12,086 nt of DNA from Fimbriiglobus sp. Its GTDB lineage: Bacteria; Planctomycetota; Planctomycetia; Gemmatales; Gemmataceae. The notes under the pieces were generated by a model that was not told where the DNA came from, did no database searches, and saw only the letters and a program-made list of their open reading frames with translations. Position numbers and translations under genes: made by a program. The stretch is taken from contig JANXTD010000022.1 of assembly GCA_025352585.1 (NCBI GenBank), positions 1 through 12,086 on the forward strand. Direction: 5' to 3'. Shown piece by piece: positions 3,414-12,067 of this stretch. Each line of letters begins with the position of its first letter. Position 1 is the stretch's first letter.

Positions 3414-6155
3414 ATGGCTTTCAACCCGTTCGACATTTTTCGCCGCAACACGCGAATCTTGTTCATCATCCTCACCTGCGTCATGATGTTCGTCTTCGTC
3501 CTGCAGTTCGGGCAGGGCGACCTCTTCTCGATGATCCCGCGCCTCCTCGCCGCCCGCACCCGCGGCGGCGAAGTCCTCGCCGTCGTCGGCGGGAGCAAAG
3601 TTTACTCGTCCGAACTCGGCGACCTCGAAACCCGCCGCCTCGTCGCCAACGAGTACATGGTCCGCGGCAGCGAGCGGGCCTTGCTCAACTTGCAAACCGC
3701 CGTGGCCGACAACCTCAAGACGGTCACCGCCCAGAACAAGCAGACCATCGAGAAGGCCTTCACGGCCGTCCAGCGCAACTTCTTCAGCCAGGAACTCGAG
3801 CAGCGCTACCAGATGCTGCAGCGCTTCAACTTCGGCACCCCCATCACGATGGACGACGAGCGCACCGACCGCGAGCGCACCCTGCAATTCACGCTGTTCA
3901 GCCTCGAGCAGATCGTCCAGGGCAAGAACCCGCCCGAGGCCGACCGCACCGCCGCCCAGGCGCTGATGCAGCTCATCGACCTGCGCGAGCGCCGCATCCA
4001 GGCCGCCGGCAGCGGCAACAAGACGCACTACTTCGGCAACCAGCCGGCCAACACGACCCGCGACAACGTCGAGTTCATGCTGTGGCTCAAGAAGGCCGAC
4101 CAACTCGGCATCCACTTCGCCGCCGCCGAGGTCAGCGACCTGGCGAACCACGAACTCTTCCAAAAGATGACGGCCGACGACTGGCGTGCGGTGGACGGCA
4201 GCCTGCGCGACAAGGCCCGCTTCTCGCCGTCGATGGTGCAGTCGGCGCTCGCCGACGAGTTCCGCGTGCGCTCGGCCCAGGCCGCGGTCATGGGCCAGTC
4301 GGCGCTGAACCCGCTGGCGACCGAGTACCAGTCGCCCGCCGAGTTCTTCGAGTACTTCCGCAAGGAAACCAACCCGGCGACCTACCGCGTCATCGCCGTC
4401 CCGGCCGAGAACTTCGTCGACCGCGTGACCGGCAGCCCAGACGACGTGGCCCGCCGCGAACTCTTTCAGGCCGGCAAGAACGACGACCCCAACCCGAAGC
4501 TGGCCAAGCTGGGCCTGCGCGAGCCGCGCAAGCTCAAACTCGGCTGGCTCGAGGTCACCGGCGAGGAGCCGTACTTCAAGGCCGCCGCCGCCGAGGCCGC
4601 GCCGAAGCTCGACCTGGCCGCGAAGCTCAGCGGCTTTTTGGTCGCCCCGCTGCCGGGTGTGAGCCTCACGTCGCTGCTGGCCGCCCCCGCGCCGGCCTTC
4701 ACGCCGAACCTGCTGACGGGCGAGCTGTACCGGGCGTACGTCGCCACGCACAAGTCCGGGCTGACGCAGTCGTGGTTCAGCCTCTTCGGCGGCCAGAGCC
4801 TGCCCGACCCGGCGTTCGTGCGGCCGGCCCACGTCGCCACGCTCGCCGCGAGCCTCGCCGGGGCCTTCGCCGGCCAGGGCGGGCCGTTCGCCGCGCCCTC
4901 GGCGTTCGTCGGGGCCGCCGTGCTGGCCGACCGCAAGACCCGCTTCGAGACGCTGCCGACCGCGGTCATCGCCCCGCTGTCACCCGGCCTCGGCGGCCTC
5001 GTCACGGCGCTGGGCAACCTGGCGGTGCAGAACGTCGCCGCGCAGCCGCTGCCGCAGGCCGTCGTGCAAGGCCGGCTGCTGAGCCAGTTCGAGGAGCGGC
5101 TCGTCAAGACCGTCGCGGTGACCGACATCGTCAAGCTCATCACCGACCTCGACAAGATCAAGCCGGCCGCCGACTCGCCGGAGGCCAAGAAGCTCGTCGC
5201 CGACTTCGTCGCGGCGCGGGGCTTGAAAGTCGGCGGGTCGAAAGAGTTCCGCGACCAGTACGGCATCGGCTCCGACGAGGGCTTGAAAGTCCTCGTCGCC
5301 AAGAAGGAGGAGTCGAACCCGCTGCACAGCGCCGCGGAGGTCACCCCGGCGAAGTTCGGCCGCCGCTTCTTCTTCGAGCAGACCCGCGGCCCCGACGGCA
5401 GCCCCGGCCGCGAGGTGCCCAGCAGCGGCTTCTTCCGGCCGCAGCCGTACCCCAACGAGTCGTTCCCGATGCACCTGGTCTACCGCACCCAGGAGCAGAC
5501 GCCCGAGCCGCTGCGCGACCCCAACAGCGCCGAGGCGAAGGCCAAGGTCGAGGCGGCGTGGCGGCGCAAGCAGGCCCGCGAACTCGCCAAGAAGGCCGCC
5601 GAGGGACTCGCCGCCCAGGCCCAGGCGCTGGGCGGCAACGCGATCGAACTCAGCCCGAAGCTGACGCAGTGGCACAGCGACTTCGTCAAGTCGTTCGCGT
5701 CGCCCGAGGCCCAGGCCCGCGTCAAGCTCTTCTCGCTCGACAACGTGGCCCCGGTCGTCGAGACTTCGGGCATCGGCATCATGGCCCAGCGCGGGGCCGG
5801 CGGCTACTCGATGAAGGAGACCGCCGACATCGCCTTCCCGACCCAAACGATGGTCGAGGAGGTCGTCCGCGCCAAGGACAAGCCCCTCGGCACGGCCCTG
5901 GTGCTGACCGACGAGCCGGGTGACACGGCGTACGTCGCGGTCCTGAGCAGCCGCGAGGAGAAGTCGATCGACGACTTCTACACCTACGCCTACGGCTCGT
6001 CGTCGAAGTTCACGCCCTTGCAGCCTGTCGTGAGGCGCAACCAGCGCGCGGCACTCCGCAAGCAGGCCCGCGACACGGCGGTACTGCTGCTGAAGTCCGA
6101 GTTCGGCTACGAGAAGGAGAGCGAGAGCCTGAACAAGAAGTCGATCGACGAGTAG
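3414..6155 (+). CDS. Membrane-anchored PpiD/SurA-like periplasmic chaperone (putative), 913 aa
   Basis: The protein has a short cytoplasmic N-terminus (MAFNPFDIFRRNTR), one transmembrane helix at about residues 15-32 and a long extracytoplasmic part. This is the PpiD topology. After the anchor, VLAVVGGSKVYSSELGDL (residues 55-72) resembles the start of the SurA/PpiD N-terminal chaperone domain. A helical region follows to about residue 320. Residues 321-380 (YRVIAVPAENF, then GLREPRKLKLGWLEV) resemble the region leading into the parvulin domain. I do not see a recognisable parvulin catalytic core. Instead, residues about 390-585 are Ala/Leu/Pro-rich. Residues 673-690 (FFRPQPYPNESFPMHLVY) and a charged helix (705-735) resemble the C-terminal part of such proteins. 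The ATG at 3414 has AGGG (3403-3406) 7 nt upstream. It is probably a foldase-type helper without isomerase activity, but this rests on weak similarity. The coding call is firm; the function is tentative. Confidence 0.8.
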   Translation: MAFNPFDIFRRNTRILFIILTCVMMFVFVLQFGQGDLFSMIPRLLAARTRGGEVLAVVGGSKVYSSELGDLETRRLVANEYMVRGSERALLNLQTAVADNLKTVTAQNKQTIEKAFTAVQRNFFSQELEQRYQMLQRFNFGTPITMDDERTDRERTLQFTLFSLEQIVQGKNPPEADRTAAQALMQLIDLRERRIQAAGSGNKTHYFGNQPANTTRDNVEFMLWLKKADQLGIHFAAAEVSDLANHELFQKMTADDWRAVDGSLRDKARFSPSMVQSALADEFRVRSAQAAVMGQSALNPLATEYQSPAEFFEYFRKETNPATYRVIAVPAENFVDRVTGSPDDVARRELFQAGKNDDPNPKLAKLGLREPRKLKLGWLEVTGEEPYFKAAAAEAAPKLDLAAKLSGFLVAPLPGVSLTSLLAAPAPAFTPNLLTGELYRAYVATHKSGLTQSWFSLFGGQSLPDPAFVRPAHVATLAASLAGAFAGQGGPFAAPSAFVGAAVLADRKTRFETLPTAVIAPLSPGLGGLVTALGNLAVQNVAAQPLPQAVVQGRLLSQFEERLVKTVAVTDIVKLITDLDKIKPAADSPEAKKLVADFVAARGLKVGGSKEFRDQYGIGSDEGLKVLVAKKEESNPLHSAAEVTPAKFGRRFFFEQTRGPDGSPGREVPSSGFFRPQPYPNESFPMHLVYRTQEQTPEPLRDPNSAEAKAKVEAAWRRKQARELAKKAAEGLAAQAQALGGNAIELSPKLTQWHSDFVKSFASPEAQARVKLFSLDNVAPVVETSGIGIMAQRGAGGYSMKETADIAFPTQTMVEEVVRAKDKPLGTALVLTDEPGDTAYVAVLSSREEKSIDDFYTYAYGSSSKFTPLQPVVRRNQRAALRKQARDTAVLLLKSEFGYEKESESLNKKSIDE

Positions 6156-6180
6156 GCGAGCCGGAAGCGTCCGGAGTTCC
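6156..6180. repeat. Truncated copy of the GAGCCG-type dispersed repeat
   Basis: Immediately after the stop of the 913-aa gene, GAGCCGGAAGCGT (6158-6170) runs straight into CCGGAGTTCC (6171-6180). Compared with the copy at 7289-7320, seven bases (GAGCGCC) are missing between the two blocks. The CGGAGTTC part is also the outer end of the 64-bp inverted repeat that follows, so the two repeat elements abut or share sequence here. Confidence 0.6.
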
Positions 6181-6365
6181 GTGGCTCCGCCGCAGGCGAC
6201 TCTTGTTAGCCCGACGCGCGAGCGAGGGGAGCAAACCCCGGTGGGCAACGCGGGTGGGGAAAGCCAAAGCCGTCAACACCCAGCAGCATTGCGGATTCGG
6301 ATTTGCTCCCCTCGCTCGCGCGTCGGGCTAACAAGATGCGCCTGCGGCGGGGCCACGGAACTCCG
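6172..6365. repeat. 194-bp inverted-repeat element with 64-bp arms
   Basis: The left arm (6172-6235) and right arm (6302-6365) are reverse complements at 61 of 64 positions and flank a 66-bp centre. The arms contain TTGTTAGCCCGACGCGCGAG (6213-6232 on the plus strand), a motif I recall as widespread between genes in Gemmata-type genomes. That recollection is unverified. The outermost bases of each arm are CGGAGTTC / GAACTCCG, also found in the palindrome at 7289-7360. No open frame of plausible protein composition lies inside, and I see no target-site duplication next to the arms. It could be a miniature inverted-repeat element, or a large stem-loop at the 3' end of the upstream gene's transcript. 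Confidence 0.85.
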
Positions 6366-6484
6366 TCGCTGAGGTGCAATTCGCATCAGCTCACCGCACG
6401 GCCACCGCCGACTCGAGCAAGGCACTTGGGGGCGACCGCAATGTGCGACCTGGCCCTCGCCGACCACACCCCGACGCCGACGCC

Positions 6485-6656
6485 ATGCCCCGAGTCGTCG
6501 TCAGCGGCGCGGGCATCGGCGGGCTTGTCGCGGCCGTCGCGTTCCGCCGCCGGGGCTGGGAGGCGGCCTTCTACGAGGCGGCCCCCGAGTCCCGGCCCGT
6601 CGGCAAGGGCATCTGGGTGCCGATCAACGCGATGTCGGTGCTCGGCCTCGCCTCCC
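6485..6656 (+). pseudogene. 5' remnant of an FAD-dependent monooxygenase gene
   Basis: Starting at ATG 6485, the frame reads MPRVVVSGAGIGGLVAAVAF, then about 35 residues ending GIWVPINAMSVLGL. This is the N-terminus of a flavoprotein aromatic hydroxylase/monooxygenase. It has the Rossmann GAGIGG motif (residues 8-13), an acidic strand end (YEAAP) and the RPVGKGIW segment that follows in this family. Intact members run to about 370-400 residues. Here similarity stops at about residue 55 (near 6650), and the frame closes at 6698-6700 after unrelated residues. Base composition also drops at this point. No later part of the family (no GD FAD motif) follows in any plus-strand frame. It is best read as a truncated gene whose 3' part was lost or replaced. 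No Shine-Dalgarno sequence is evident. Confidence 0.7.
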
Positions 6657-6678
6657 GTTGTCACACAGGATATGTCTT

Positions 6679-7116
6679 TTGCGATACTTCTCGGCCGTAA
6701 TGATTTCCGCCTGGTCGTTAAGCTGTTCCGGGGGAGGTACCACGAACATCGTGTTCCACAGCAGTGCCGCGAAGGTTGCGGACGGGTTGTACATCGTCGT
6801 CCAAAGTCGTAACGCCAATTTGCGCAAAGAAAGCGGCGTCACCACAATCGACTTTGCCGACTCGAACATCGGTCACGTGCCGGACAGGAGATTGTTCAGT
6901 CATTTCGTCGTGACATTCACCAACGGCGACGGCACTGAGGTGCTACCGATGGCATTTCATCGTCAGACACTTGAGCCGGGCAAGAGATACGTCATACCAC
7001 TGCCCTACGGAAACGACCCCTTTTGGTTTTACGTCGGCACTAACGACGGCTACAAGGCGTGTCGGGCGCAACTCAAACACAAACTTGGCGACTACGAGAT
7101 CGACTTCAGTCCGTGA
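6679..7116 (+). CDS. Small probable lipoprotein of unknown function, 145 aa
   Basis: I do not recognise the family. From the TTG at 6679 the protein begins MRYFSAVMISAWSLSCSGGG, with a short basic start, a hydrophobic stretch and a cysteine followed by Ser-Gly-Gly-Gly. This is a plausible lipoprotein signal, though Ser at -3 is not ideal for a lipobox. The mature part looks beta-rich and globular (FVVTFTNGDG, YVIPLPYGND, PFWFYVGTND). AGGA (6667-6670) lies 8 nt before this TTG and decides the start. Alternatives are TTG 6658 (seven residues longer, no ribosome site) and ATG 6700 (too short a signal peptide). My hand count gives 228 G+C in 420 bases (54%) over 6661-7080, clearly below the neighbours, which suggests separate origin. 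It begins where the monooxygenase remnant ends and converges on the M50 gene. Confidence 0.7.
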   Translation: MRYFSAVMISAWSLSCSGGGTTNIVFHSSAAKVADGLYIVVQSRNANLRKESGVTTIDFADSNIGHVPDRRLFSHFVVTFTNGDGTEVLPMAFHRQTLEPGKRYVIPLPYGNDPFWFYVGTNDGYKACRAQLKHKLGDYEIDFSP

Positions 7117-7184: not shown

Positions 7185-7288
7185 GGTAGCGTCCTCCCGG
7201 CGCTGCGGGCCTACAACGGCTTGGGGTAACTGCACGACCGCGCGCCAGCCGAGCGCTGCTCGACCGGCCGTACCGGCTGAACTCCTGA

Positions 7289-7360
7289 GGCGAGCCGGAA
7301 GCGTGAGCGCCCGGAGTTCTGCACGTGTAGAACTCCGGGCGATCACGCTTCCGGCACGCC
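7289..7360. terminator. 72-bp near-perfect palindrome between convergent genes
   Basis: The sequence is symmetric about 7324/7325 (centre CACGTG, 7322-7327). Of 36 potential pairs, only 7293/7356 and 7307/7342 mismatch, and 7321/7328 is a G-T pair. It consists of two inverted copies of the repeat block that also occurs at 6156-6180 and 12038-12067. It lies in the gap between the plus-strand lipoprotein gene and the minus-strand M50 gene, 7 bp beyond the stop codon of the latter. A bidirectional terminator or mRNA 3'-end protector would fit this position. There is no T-tract on either side, so a classical Rho-independent terminator is not established. Confidence 0.75.
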
Positions 7361-7367
7361 TTGAGTG

Positions 7368-9617
7368 TTACTGGTACAGCCCGAAGTCCAGCGCCTCGCT
7401 GGCGGCGCGCTTCAGCCACCACGCGGCCGTGCGCCACTTGCAGTGGATCTTCGCGTTCACCAGCGCCCCGGACTTGATGCTCGCGTCGGGGTCGGTCAAC
7501 TCGACCTCGACGAGGTAGACCTGCGCGACCGGGATCAACTCCTGGTTGTTCTCGCCGCCCTGCTGCACCGCCACCGGGCCGGTGCTGCGACTCGTCAGCC
7601 CGTACGGCACCTGCTTGGCGCTCGACTGCGGCAGGCGTGTGACCTTCCCCCGGAAGACGCGGTCGGTGCGGCCGCGGACGTAGACCGACACGTCGAGCGA
7701 GCCGCCGGCGGGCATGTCCTCCGCGAGCAACTTGTGGTCCATCGAACTCACCGGGACTTTGATGATGAGCTTCGTCGGGTCGCCGACCGTGCAGATCGGC
7801 TTGCCCTGCTGGAAGTTGCGGTCGAACAGCTTGCCGACCTCGCCGCGGTTGACCAAGCCCATCACCACGCCGTCGCGCGGGGCGACCTTGTCGCGGAGCA
7901 GGGCCAGTTCCCCGGCGACCTGCGTCACGACCCGCTGCTGCGCGGCGGCCTCGTCGGCGGCTAAAGTCATATCGTTGGTGATCTTCGAGACGTCGATGCC
8001 GCGCGGCGACGCGAGGAGGACGTTGCCGAGAATCGACCGCTCGATGTTCTTCTCGTCGCGCTTCGACTCGGCCGTCGCCAACTGCTCCTTGAGTTCGTGA
8101 CTGTCGAAGTTGCCGATGAGTTGCCCGCGGGTGACGACCTGGCCCTCCTGCACGTGCAGGCTCACCAGGTTGGCCGGCTGCGCCAGCACCACCGGCTCGG
8201 AGAAGCCGGGGTCCACCGTCACCAGGCCGATCTCGCGCACCCGGCTCACCGGCAGCGGCACGAAGCAGGCCACGGCCAGCAAGCCGAGGGCCACGGACGC
8301 CGTGACCGCCACGCGTTGGGTCTTCATGTCCGGTAGCCGCCCCCGTTGTTTGATGTTCTTGATCATGCGATACGTCGGCCAGATGAACATGGTGCCCAGC
8401 GAGAACGCCGCGAGCATCTGGCTCAGGATTTTCAACTGCGGCCCGAGGAAGTCCGCCAGGAAGAAGATGATGCTAAACGTCACCACCCACCGGTAGACGT
8501 AACTCGCGATCGCGTAGCCGACGAACAGCAAGCGCCGCCCCGGTGCCATGTACTGTTCCGGCGGCACCTCGATGCCCAGGCAGATACTCAGGAACAGGTT
8601 CGTGAGGTACCGATTCGCCCGGTCCCGCAAGTTGGGAATCTCGATCCAGTCGGCCAGCATGTAGTAGCCGTCGAAGCGCATCAGCGGGTTGGCGTTGAAG
8701 AAGACCGTACTCACGGAGCACAGCACCATCACCGCCATCGCGATGTTGTTGACCGTGACGAGGTGCGGCGTGTACCACCACACGAAGGTCGCCAGCGCGG
8801 CGATCACCAGCTCGACGTAGATGCCGGCGAAGCTGATGATGATGCGCTTCCACTTGTCCGCGACCGTCCAGGCGTCGGTGACGTTGCAGTACATCGCCGG
8901 CGAGAAGCACATGAGCAAAAAGCCCATCTCGTGACTCTCGCCCTTGAACGCCTTACAACTCAAGCCGTGGCCGAACTCGTGGATGATCTTGACGACCCCC
9001 AGGCTCATCCACATGTACAACACGGTGTTGATCGCGAAGAATTCCTGGTAGCGCGGGATCTTGTCGTGGAAGGTCTGGAAGTGGACCAGCACCTGGAACA
9101 CGGCCGCGAGCATGAGCGTCACGCTCGCCGCGAAGAACCACGGCGTGAAGATCCACCAGAGGTAGCCGTACATCCACGTCAGCAGCCGGTCCGGGTCGAA
9201 GACCGGGATCTTCCAGTACATCACGTTCGACACGGTGGCGAGGCGCTTGAGCCGGCGCTGCTTGGCGCGGCGCTGGTACAGGTGCTTGCCCGCGCCCCCG
9301 GTTTCGTGCTGCACCAGGCCGGCGGTTACGAGTTGCCGCGCGAAGCTCTCGAGGTCGGCGAACTCGAGCCGGTGCGGCTTGAACTCGCTCTCGAAGTCCT
9401 TGCGCACATCCTCCATCGTGTGCTTCCCGTCGAAGCGCTCGAAGACGTGGTACTCCTGCCGGCTGAAGCGGTAGTAGCGTAGGCAGACGGGGTCCTTGAC
9501 GACGTGGAAGACCTTGCCCTCGTAGCGCTGCTCGGTGATTTGCAGGTCCGGCCGGACGCGCAGTCGCACCGCCTTGCGGCGTTCGGCCGGGTTGTCGAGC
9601 AGTTCGGCGGCGTTCAT
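7368..9617 (-). CDS. M50 (site-2-protease-like) metalloprotease with PqqD-like N-domain and C-terminal HlyD adaptor module, 749 aa
   Basis: The domains are, in order: residues about 20-102, a winged-helix-like PqqD/RRE-type domain (YYRFSRQEYHVFERFDGK, then a helix ending LVTAGLV); about 155-453, a polytopic membrane part with roughly eight hydrophobic segments; about 460-730, a periplasmic adaptor module. Zinc-protease motifs are H213-E214-F-G-H217 in the membrane and NPLMRFDG (310-317), whose D316 is the expected third zinc ligand. The adaptor has two lipoyl half-motifs (ANLVSLHVQEGQVVTRGQLI at 482-501 and DGVVMGLVNRGEVGKLFD at 582-599) around a helical hairpin, then a beta-barrel-like region. 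ATG 9617 has GAGGGG (complement of 9626-9631) 8 nt upstream. It lies downstream of the WD40 adaptor gene in the same direction. It probably cleaves or moves an envelope or peptide substrate; the substrate is unknown. Confidence 0.92.
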   Translation of the reverse strand: MNAAELLDNPAERRKAVRLRVRPDLQITEQRYEGKVFHVVKDPVCLRYYRFSRQEYHVFERFDGKHTMEDVRKDFESEFKPHRLEFADLESFARQLVTAGLVQHETGGAGKHLYQRRAKQRRLKRLATVSNVMYWKIPVFDPDRLLTWMYGYLWWIFTPWFFAASVTLMLAAVFQVLVHFQTFHDKIPRYQEFFAINTVLYMWMSLGVVKIIHEFGHGLSCKAFKGESHEMGFLLMCFSPAMYCNVTDAWTVADKWKRIIISFAGIYVELVIAALATFVWWYTPHLVTVNNIAMAVMVLCSVSTVFFNANPLMRFDGYYMLADWIEIPNLRDRANRYLTNLFLSICLGIEVPPEQYMAPGRRLLFVGYAIASYVYRWVVTFSIIFFLADFLGPQLKILSQMLAAFSLGTMFIWPTYRMIKNIKQRGRLPDMKTQRVAVTASVALGLLAVACFVPLPVSRVREIGLVTVDPGFSEPVVLAQPANLVSLHVQEGQVVTRGQLIGNFDSHELKEQLATAESKRDEKNIERSILGNVLLASPRGIDVSKITNDMTLAADEAAAQQRVVTQVAGELALLRDKVAPRDGVVMGLVNRGEVGKLFDRNFQQGKPICTVGDPTKLIIKVPVSSMDHKLLAEDMPAGGSLDVSVYVRGRTDRVFRGKVTRLPQSSAKQVPYGLTSRSTGPVAVQQGGENNQELIPVAQVYLVEVELTDPDASIKSGALVNAKIHCKWRTAAWWLKRAASEALDFGLYQ

Positions 9618-9652: not shown

Positions 9653-9726
9653 CGAGCCGTCGGCGTCAGCCGGGGGTTTCTCGGTGCCCGCAGGCCCGGA
9701 GACCCCCGGCTCACGCCGACGGCTCG
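9653..9726. terminator. Hairpin with 28-bp arms between the WD40-adaptor and M50 genes
   Basis: The left arm (9653-9680) and right arm (9699-9726) are complementary at 26 of 28 positions, with an 18-nt loop. It begins 9 bp after the stop of the WD40-adaptor gene and ends 36 bp before the M50 start. The outer part carries the GAGCCGNNNGCGTSAGC skeleton (9654-9670, and inverted at 9709-9725), so it belongs with the palindromes at 7289 and 12038. No T-run follows on the minus strand. It could attenuate or process the transcript between the two genes rather than fully terminate it. Confidence 0.7.
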
Positions 9727-9735
9727 CCGGGGGCG

Positions 9736-11928
9736 TTACTTCGGCAACGCGTGCGTCGGGGCCAGCGGCACCGGCGGGACGGTCACCAGGGGCGTCGTCG
9801 CCGACGCGGGCAGCACAGCCGGGCCGCCGGGCGTCGGGGCCGCCACCGCGCCGACGGGGATGATCGCCGCCTTGGCGGGCGGGGCGGCCAGCACGTTCGG
9901 CACGGCCGTCGCCGGGACGCCGCCGGGCGGGACGATGATCGTCGCCGCGCTGCGGTCCTGCAAGCCCTCGGGGTTGGCCTTGTCGATCGGGTTCATCAGC
10001 TCGACGCGGACCTGCACGCTCTTGGCGTCCGCGGGGACGACCGAGACGATCTCGCCGACGATCCGCTTGCCGTCGCCGTCGGTCGGCGAGGTCCAGAAGT
10101 GGACGCCGCCGTCCACCGTGCCGACCGCGACGTACTTGAACGCCGGGTCGGCCGAGAACGCCGCGCACGTAATCGCGGCGTTGCGCGGGGTCACCAGCCG
10201 GCGGCGCTCCGCGGCGCGGTTGCCGGGGGCCGGCGTGTCCCAGACCGTCAACTCGCCCCGCTGGTCGTTGTCGGCCCCGGCGGTCAGAATCAGCGTGTCG
10301 TCGGGGCTGAACAGCGCGAAGCCGGCGAACCTCGCCCCGCCGCCGGGGTTCTGGACCGTGCCGACCGTGCTCGCGTCGGCCAAGCTGACCACGTCGAGCC
10401 GCGAGGCGTCCTTGTCGAAGAGCACCCGCGAGCCGTCCGACGAGACGCCCAGGACCTCGACGGTGCCGCCGCGGTGGTCGATGACCGTGGCGACGTTGGC
10501 CCCGGTCTCGCCGAGCTTCCAGGTCCGCACCGACTTGTCCTTCGACACGGTCACCAGCGTCGATTGCGGCGTGAAGCGCACGGCCGTCACGGCGTCGCGG
10601 TGCTCCGGCGGCAGGGCGTACATCTTGCGGCGGTCGGCGACACTCCAGACGAACACGTCGCGGCCACTCGTGGTGGCGAGGTGCCGGCCGTCCGGCGTGA
10701 AGGCCATCGCGGTGACGCTGCCGACGTGGGCCTCGTCGAAGGTCGCCACCGGCTCCTTGGGCATCTTGTCCGGGTTCGACAGGTCCCAGAGGCGGACCTT
10801 GCCGTCCTCGCCGCCCACGGCGACGAGGTGCCCCTTGGCCTTGGCCCCGGTCGCCGCGACGCTGCGAACCCCGACGCCCGGCGGGTTGGCCAGCCGCGTC
10901 GATTGCTTGGTCGCGGTCACGTCCCACACCAGCGCCGCGCCGTCGAGGCCGCCGGAGACGACCATCGGCCGGCCGGGGTGCGCCGTCACGGCCACCGCGG
11001 TCACTTCCTGGCGGTGGTAGTTCGTCAGCGCGTTCGACCCCAACGGCCGGGTCGGCTCGACGTAGACGAGCATCCCCTTGCGGACCTGCGAGGCGTAGCC
11101 GATGTCGAGCTTGGCCTCGACCTTGACGCGGTCGATCGACTGCAACTCGAGGATCGTCTCGCCGGCCTTGGCGAAGTCCTGGGCGCTCTTCAACAGCCGC
11201 ACGACGCGGCCGTTCTGCTCGCTGATGATCCAGTAGCGCTTGTGCTGCGTCTCGGCCGACTTGTACTCGCCGTCGTTCTTGATCAACTCCTTCTCGGAGT
11301 TCATCTGGTTCTCGACGTACCGCGCCCAGAGCGACTGCTGCTGGAGCAGTTCGCTCACGCTGACCGAAGTCGTGAGGGCTTCGAGCTTGTCGAGCAGCTT
11401 CTTCTGCAACACGGCGGCCTCGGTCGAGGCGGCGAGCGCCCGCTTGATCGCGGGGGCCATGCTGAGGTACTGCATCTTCTGCGTGTAGACGAGTTGGTCG
11501 TCGAGGCGGGCCAGGATTTGGCCCTTGACGATCAGGTCGTTCTCGCGCAGCCGGCGGTACGGCTGCTCCTTCTTCACGTCGCGCGGGTGGAAGACGATGT
11601 CGGGGTCGTTGGGGTTGTACGGGGCCTTGTCGGGCAGCGGCGTGGCGATCAACTCGACGACGCCGTCGACGGCGGCCGGGATCTGCGTCCGCATGTCGTA
11701 CTGGACGACCGCGTTCGGCAGCACGATCGGCTCGCCGACCGGCGTACTCGCCGGCAGCGCCGGCATCGCCGCGGCGGGGTACAGCAGCCCGCCGACCTCC
11801 GTCGGCACCGTGCCCGAGGGGTTGCCGCTACCGTTGCCGGTGGTGGGGGCGGGCGGGGTGCAGGCGATGGCGGTGAGGCCCGCGCTGCCGACGGTTGCGA
11901 ACGCGAGCCAACTCTTCAGGGACTTCAT
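9736..11928 (-). CDS. Lipoprotein membrane-fusion adaptor (HlyD/RND type) with inserted seven-bladed WD40 propeller, 730 aa
   Basis: The signal peptide MKSLKSWLAFATVGSAGLTA-IA is followed by Cys23, the likely lipidated residue, then a Gly/Pro/Ser linker. Residues about 65-142 carry the first lipoyl half-motif (IPAAVDGVVELIA, then RENDLIVKGQILARLDD), split by about 30 extra residues. Residues 145-235 form a helical, probably coiled-coil, hairpin. Residues 236-263 are the second lipoyl half (ISEQNGRVVRLLKSAQDFAK). Residues 264-295 start a beta-barrel (VKVEAKLDIGYASQVRKGML). Residues about 302-614 hold seven WD40-type repeats, with strand ends VWDV, LWDL, VWSV, TWKL, VVSL, VWDT and FWTS. Residues 623-666 (VGEIVSVVPADAKSVQVRVE onward) look like the rest of the adaptor barrel. 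A Pro/Ala/Val-rich tail ends the protein. GGAGAGG (complement of 11934-11940) lies 5 nt before the ATG. It precedes the M50 gene and probably works with it. Confidence 0.92.
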   Translation of the reverse strand: MKSLKSWLAFATVGSAGLTAIACTPPAPTTGNGSGNPSGTVPTEVGGLLYPAAAMPALPASTPVGEPIVLPNAVVQYDMRTQIPAAVDGVVELIATPLPDKAPYNPNDPDIVFHPRDVKKEQPYRRLRENDLIVKGQILARLDDQLVYTQKMQYLSMAPAIKRALAASTEAAVLQKKLLDKLEALTTSVSVSELLQQQSLWARYVENQMNSEKELIKNDGEYKSAETQHKRYWIISEQNGRVVRLLKSAQDFAKAGETILELQSIDRVKVEAKLDIGYASQVRKGMLVYVEPTRPLGSNALTNYHRQEVTAVAVTAHPGRPMVVSGGLDGAALVWDVTATKQSTRLANPPGVGVRSVAATGAKAKGHLVAVGGEDGKVRLWDLSNPDKMPKEPVATFDEAHVGSVTAMAFTPDGRHLATTSGRDVFVWSVADRRKMYALPPEHRDAVTAVRFTPQSTLVTVSKDKSVRTWKLGETGANVATVIDHRGGTVEVLGVSSDGSRVLFDKDASRLDVVSLADASTVGTVQNPGGGARFAGFALFSPDDTLILTAGADNDQRGELTVWDTPAPGNRAAERRRLVTPRNAAITCAAFSADPAFKYVAVGTVDGGVHFWTSPTDGDGKRIVGEIVSVVPADAKSVQVRVELMNPIDKANPEGLQDRSAATIIVPPGGVPATAVPNVLAAPPAKAAIIPVGAVAAPTPGGPAVLPASATTPLVTVPPVPLAPTHALPK

Positions 11929-11976: not shown

Positions 11977-12037
11977 CGTTGTTCGGGGTGGCCGCCAAGT
12001 CCCCCGGCGGTCCGGGGCCGGTCAGGCCGTGGTAGCA

Positions 12038-12067
12038 GGCGAGCCGGAAGCGTCAGCGCCCGGAGTC
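12038..12067. repeat. GAGCCG-type dispersed repeat at the right edge
   Basis: GAGCCGGAAGCGTCAGC (12041-12057) followed by GCCCGGAGT matches the left half of the 7289-7360 palindrome, apart from one G/C difference in the skeleton and divergence after CGGAGT. The window ends 19 bases later, so it cannot be seen whether an inverted partner follows. Confidence 0.65.

Follow-up and report, generated by a model that had tools for sequence, protein, structure and literature searches.

A WD40 propeller predicted within the beta-barrel hairpin of a periplasmic adaptor in the Gemmatales

Does the WD40 propeller of an adaptor protein from Fimbriiglobus sp. hang at the end of the adaptor, or is it built into the adaptor barrel itself? 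The stretch that raises this question (contig JANXTD010000022.1, 12,086 nucleotides, hereafter the window) encodes the adaptor B, which is the middle member of a three-gene set found across the class Planctomycetia. In this set, A is the GAF-HlyD gene or protein and C is the PqqD/M50-HlyD one; B of the window is also called P0001, and loci and genomes carry the prefixes L and G, respectively. A sequence-only reading had proposed that the propeller splits the adaptor signatures and is inserted in a barrel loop. Judged by sequence profile and predicted structure, the WD40 propeller interrupts the beta-barrel at a hairpin loop, bounded by residues 292 and 623, and is not an appended domain.

The sequence-only reading had called for homologues that lack the insertion. 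Such propeller-less proteins occupy the corresponding gene position, next to the M50 gene on its upstream side, and 29 of them were used to build a profile. In P0001, residues 127-295 matched profile positions 70-256 and residues 615-678 matched positions 255-319. The two matches abut in the profile (256/255), and the propeller therefore sits at a single profile point, as expected if it splits the adaptor signatures. Both pieces were found in order around the propeller in 41 of the 49 propeller-bearing B proteins (unique loci). The second piece was recovered at an independent E-value (i-E) of up to 10 in 42/49 relatives versus 2/490 shuffled-tail copies, and at 0.01 or better in 36/49 versus 0/490. 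All 79 propeller-less B proteins, including the 29 sequences that built the profile, matched it in one unbroken piece. Junction alignments revealed a standard adaptor barrel second half after the propeller, which was clearest in L104 and L117. Other inserts in the same loop were sought in the longer propeller-less B proteins (L084, L168, L169, L179, L193, L198, L207 and L209) and none was found, the extra length lying upstream.

The AlphaFold model of P0001 contains strands at residues 623-634 and 637-645, with 10-residue means of the predicted local distance difference test (pLDDT) of 82, 87 and 76, and a third strand at 661-666 (77). These strands correspond to strands 245-257, 263-271 and 282-288 in the AlphaFold model of a propeller-less relative, whose fold matched MacA and biotin carriers. 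Among the matches listed, a fold search with the window model returned WD40-type propeller structures only and was uninformative on the adaptor part; in most of the listed structural alignments, 613-616 is where the propeller stops. A WD40 propeller has its two termini next to each other and can thus sit in a hairpin without breaking the barrel.

Several points weigh against the nested placement. The second-half match of P0001 is weak by itself (i-E 0.0072), in 8/49 relatives the second piece was not found in the first scoring, so that they lend no support to both halves, and residues 615-620 and 674-730 are of low confidence in the model. These same points favor an appended propeller, with a barrel complete before residue 300 and a part after 614 that forms an eighth blade or a disordered tail. 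In addition, the window model is middling (mean pLDDT 76.3, predicted template modelling score 0.56), and the barrel split was judged from the sequence profile and the predicted strand series rather than from contacts between the halves. An appended propeller is nevertheless largely contradicted already and seems extremely improbable, because the second half stands in order in most relatives and hardly ever in shuffled tails even at the loosest threshold, L117 and L104 retain the standard second half, the region after 614 contains predicted strands with pLDDT means of 76-87, and the structural alignment of the propeller stops just before them in most listed rows. The layout of the nested form, together with the neighboring gene C, is as follows.

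9736-11928, minus strand: B, 730 residues, lipoyl domain, alpha-hairpin and beta-barrel with predicted nested WD40 propeller (open reading frame, Pfam/NCBIfam, AlphaFold)
11860-11928, minus strand: signal peptide and lipobox LTAIAC, residues 1-23 (sequence, alignment of relatives)
11503-11727, minus strand: leading strands and first lipoyl half, residues 68-142, with an extra loop (HPRD, 114-117) (alignment, AlphaFold, profile)
11239-11496, minus strand: alpha-helical hairpin, residues 145-230, helices 145-184 and 191-230 (AlphaFold)
11137-11232, minus strand: second lipoyl half, residues 233-264 (Pfam, AlphaFold)
11044-11136, minus strand: beta-barrel first half, residues 265-295, with strand 267-275, cap helix 276-281 and strand 287-292 (AlphaFold, profile, alignment)
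10081-11022, minus strand: seven-bladed WD40 propeller, residues 303-616, in the predicted barrel hairpin loop (Pfam, AlphaFold, fold search)
9925-10071, minus strand: beta-barrel second half, residues 620-668, with the three strands given above (AlphaFold, profile, alignment)
9739-9924, minus strand: Pro/Ala-rich C-terminal tail, residues 669-730 (alignment, AlphaFold)
7368-9617, minus strand: C, 749 residues, PqqD-like N-terminus, M50 metalloprotease part (HEFGH) and C-terminal HlyD part (open reading frame, Pfam, NCBIfam)

The adaptor beta-barrel is described as six antiparallel strands capped by one helix (PMC8277102). By sequence profile and predicted strand series, B has this six-stranded barrel in two pieces flanking the propeller. 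The Pfam family HlyD_3 matched residues 236-291 (26.6 bits, curated cut-off 22.2), covering only the first part of its profile and ending at position 60 of 106, just before WD40 repeat 1. The NCBIfam model RND_mfp (TIGR01730) reached 33.2 bits, under its curated cut-off of 94.9. The WD40 repeats exceed their curated cut-off, and the model has the propeller fold. The lipoyl (barrel-sandwich) domain is itself split by the alpha-hairpin, as seen from the strand order and the two long helices in the model. A smaller second insert occupies residues 98-126 (11551-11637) in the first lipoyl half; its HPRD motif is invariant in 17/17 close relatives, and the profile match is broken at this insert in 32/49 propeller-bearing B proteins, with 2 to 103 residues between the pieces. 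The C-terminal tail is mostly of low confidence in AlphaFold, varies among close relatives and is absent in P0020.

The sequence-only reading had also described the protein as a lipid-anchored adaptor, which fits P0001 by its sequence pattern and fails as a general statement. By pattern, P0001 has a lipobox whose Cys23 is invariant in 17/17 aligned close relatives. The lipobox pattern occurs in 14/49 propeller-bearing and 7/79 propeller-less B proteins, with start codons uncertain, and several Gemmatales versions start, as judged by eye, with an apparent N-terminal membrane helix instead. A lipoprotein anchor as a rule of the family was therefore rejected.

In the window, C lies on the same strand as B and 118 bases downstream of it. 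In relatives, A encodes a protein of about 700 residues upstream of B, which resembles GAF weakly (E 0.0018, 19.2 bits, under the cut-off of 22.4; one protein scanned) and has a C-terminal HlyD part assigned by eye and from the published description. A relative of A was found upstream of B in 46/49 propeller-bearing and 69/79 propeller-less loci. It was not found in the window assembly at E<=1e-10; the contig has just 158 bases upstream of B, and this break is the likely reason for the absence. The break itself may be explained by an interspersed palindromic repeat, copies of which lie at 7288-7361 and 12037-12066. Its 28-base pattern had 63 genome matches with at most 3 mismatches versus 0 in the reversed control; at least 9 copies begin within 60 bases of a contig start, and one lies 20 bases from the end of the window contig. 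Between B and C, an inverted repeat at 9653-9726 (28-base arms, 93% complementary) belongs to a second repeat family, with 13 genome matches versus 0 in the reversed control.

Farther downstream, the window contains features apart from the gene set. A larger inverted repeat lies at 6172-6365 (87-base arms, 86% complementary, 20 bases apart). On the plus strand, 3414-6155 encodes a 913-residue protein that seems to have a membrane segment at its N-terminus and resembles SurA weakly (E 0.039); it may be a folding factor of the periplasm. The short plus-strand frame at 6374-6700 resembles, by eye, the start of an FAD-dependent oxidoreductase (VVVSGAGIGGLVAA) and ends early; it may be a gene remnant.

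The protein C is widespread. At E<=1e-30, matches were found in 85/95 genomes of the family, 80/83 genomes of the order (at least 85% complete) and 340/346 genomes of the class (at least 94% complete, window genome excluded, sampled from a larger set). Of 142 C proteins, 141 keep the M50 motif HE.GH intact, so that C may be a working protease and not a pore alone. A PqqD match at E<=1 was obtained in 6/8 C proteins (best E 2.2e-4), and the model daptide_HExxH matched C with 174 bits (E 4.8e-51), under its cut-off of 300. Because of the intact M50 motif and the PqqD-like, leader-recognition start of C, peptide maturation and export is a serious rival: the set would cut and export a modified peptide, and the propeller would hold the peptide or a maturase. 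The daptide match, with an HExxH motif related to peptide-processing enzymes, points the same way. On the other hand, the PqqD matches are weak, and presence in almost all genomes of the class would be atypical for a peptide cluster, which leaves this role unlikely.

Another candidate role is that of an ordinary drug or metal efflux adaptor, with its transporter encoded elsewhere and the propeller incidental. The MacA-like fold of the propeller-less relative and the automatic public names of relatives, which include CnrB and efflux RND adaptor, are in its favor. The usual neighbors are GAF-HlyD and M50-HlyD genes instead, and no RND, ABC or MFS family occurs among the Pfam rows listed for the window's four main proteins (25 of the 40 families in the case of the adaptor). 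Efflux is thus an improbable role. The sequence-only reading noted that such adaptors usually dock onto a transporter; here the likely partners would be the neighboring M50 and GAF proteins rather than an ordinary RND or ABC transporter. P0021, a Pan216 relative, bears the public name Nickel and cobalt resistance protein CnrB, which its gene context does not support.

Among Gemmatales loci (families f1 and f2, n=47, three being second copies), 44 carry a propeller-bearing B, 43 recognized by the main script and 1 partial at a contig end; L069, L113 and L137 have no B beside C. The 33 loci of other families comprise 29 with a propeller-less B, 1 with a propeller-bearing B (G104, Planctomycetes bacterium Pan216 as judged from an identical locus) and 3 without B by script. 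The 80 named loci divide into 19 whose B bears the propeller, 53 whose B lacks it and 8 without B by script, L186 among these 8 being propeller-bearing. Within the 19, Pan216 and its relative L140, a metagenome-assembled genome, group outside Gemmatales (L177, L199 and L217 bear no checkable order name).

The main script found no B in 14/142 unique loci. L112 (partial, contig end) and L186 do carry a propeller-bearing B, in L069 a different contig holds both A and B, and L089 has an HlyD-like frame seen by eye. In L145, L164, L196 and L212, there is almost no sequence upstream of C. No B was found in L113, L137 (weak second copy), L192 and L195, the cause being unexplained. In L088 and L138 (family f4), A lies beside C with no HlyD gene, and hence no B, found between them. 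A protein search from Pan216 listed 13 proteins, 5 with WD40 and 8 weak matches to ordinary adaptors; from another copy, of Gemmatales, it listed 55, all with WD40 by precomputed domains.

This distribution bears on whether the propeller could act as a spacer in the structure or bind the wall, with no protein as its specific partner, in line with the adaptors that occupy the same gene set without a propeller in the rest of the class. We think this rather unlikely, as the propeller is kept in nearly all Gemmatales loci and its irregular blades 5-6 are recognizably conserved.

A single gain of the propeller, on the branch leading to Gemmatales and the Pan216 group, is probable; it would have been inserted into an adaptor that has an ordinary short loop elsewhere in the class. 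A tree of C, made by a quick method from 67 thinned rows (39 with propeller, 24 without and 4 lacking B), has one with/without change if the loci lacking B are omitted. The origin of the blades was compared in a test set of WD40 open reading frames (ORFs) from three genomes of the window genus, one locus of another family and neighbor ORFs. With the Gemmatales blade 5-6 profile, the best domains of L140 and Pan216 scored 56 and 39 bits, compared with at most 29 for other WD40 ORFs; the only higher matches were the missed B of L186 and L112. With the propeller profile, the best domains of the Pan216 group scored 152 and 135 bits, compared with at most 111 for other ORFs.

A single origin also meets contrary evidence. 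When the loci lacking B are counted, two changes of the propeller label are needed on the tree, whose deep forks are open. Pan216's remaining WD40 proteins lie outside the test set. Sums over whole sequences, in which many repeats accumulate, favor some other WD40 proteins: L021_3 had 135 bits against 71 and 82 for the Pan216 group with the blade 5-6 profile, and L028_0 had 326 against 168 and 166 with the propeller profile. Searched against Gemmatales genomes, the Pan216 propeller did not rank B first, and other WD40 proteins had higher partial scores. The open forks, this ranking and the sums would fit independent gains, with Gemmatales and the Pan216 group each having acquired a propeller in this loop. 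The irregular blades 5-6 common to both groups and the best-domain propeller scores speak against such a coincidence, which we hold to be quite improbable.

The gene set as such is already known. Kamneva, Poudel and Ward (2015) described GAF+HlyD, HlyD/biotin-lipoyl and M50+HlyD proteins encoded together with a secondary SecA_DEAD, Planctomycetes being among the hosts, proposed a type-I-secretion-like role and termed the broader biological role completely unknown (PMC4452313). The main text of that paper contains no occurrence of WD40. A nested propeller in the adaptor is undescribed as far as the open-access literature searched goes, where no description of a WD40 insert in an adaptor was recognized (subscription papers were outside the scope). 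At least two SecA_DEAD matches were found in 20/20 genomes tried, one of them in a frame of 649-880 amino acids; the second frame at G000:C773 lies outside the window. In G251 (L088, L232), the secondary SecA frame adjoins the GAF gene, on the side away from the M50 gene. No relative of A, B or C was found around the secondary SecA in stretches of 6-13 kb in G000 (6 kb), G001, G087 and G104, which counts against a SecA-driven set.

Taken with the nested placement, the account that we consider fairly probable is that B is a MacA-like periplasmic adaptor of the A-B-C set, ending after the barrel (no membrane-proximal domain), with a seven-bladed propeller in the barrel hairpin, a putative conduit and a putative docking collar. 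Two roles are reported for adaptor barrels, self-association in a hexameric ring and contact with the transporter (PMC8277102). B would form a ring that the HlyD parts of A and C either join or flank, giving a conduit from the inner membrane; C would process or admit the substrate, and the SecA-like ATPase encoded elsewhere may supply energy, as suggested by Kamneva et al. With the propeller placed in the barrel hairpin, the propellers would project from such a ring as a collar, which may dock a protein partner, for instance a regulator, a substrate or a protein of the wall or outer membrane. On the two grounds of conservation and position, the most likely task of the propeller would be to bring such a partner to the putative conduit that B forms together with the GAF and M50 proteins. 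Docking of the TolC type is unsupported: the RLS motif RxxxLxxxxxxS, reported at the hairpin tip for TolC binding (PMC3391258), was not found in the hairpin of P0001 even with S or T allowed last, and it occurs in 4/48 propeller-bearing and 11/76 propeller-less B proteins, slightly above the shuffled fractions of 0.051 and 0.083.

A wider reading, offered tentatively as possible and somewhat doubtful, is that one order rebuilt a class-wide export machine. In it, the propellers in the adaptor barrel ring would form a collar of discs that recruit proteins around a conduit across the envelope, and this conduit would work with an M50 protease and perhaps a second SecA. The modular family of periplasmic adaptors has been studied well, and it is unusual for its plan to be altered by a propeller within the very domain through which rings form and the transporter is contacted; if true, such a collar adaptor would be of a kind not described in the open-access literature searched. 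The propeller is conserved in Gemmatales, within a gene set that almost every searched genome of the class contains, and the order includes species with heavily invaginated membranes (PMC8567305). Relatives have the same gene with a short loop instead, which offers a clean way to take the propeller out and so to test directly what it and the gene set do.

Compared with known systems, the window resembles the locus of Kamneva et al. (2015) in having an M50+HlyD gene next to an HlyD gene, and differs in that its HlyD protein carries a propeller and the secondary SecA lies outside the window. The propeller-less relative of B folds like MacA of MacAB-TolC (PDB 3fpp, 9qgy, 5nik and 4dk0), which has no insert in the barrel hairpin and whose partner is the ABC transporter MacB. 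MacA continues past the aligned part with a membrane-proximal domain. The propeller of B has the same fold as the seven-bladed WD40 propellers of PkwA (5yzv), WDR5 and Apaf-1. Those propellers are domains of signaling or scaffold proteins and not inserts in transport adaptor barrels. EmrA-type adaptors (4tko), which like B have no membrane-proximal domain as described in PMC4158417, differ from it in their MFS partner, their very long hairpin and their lack of a propeller.
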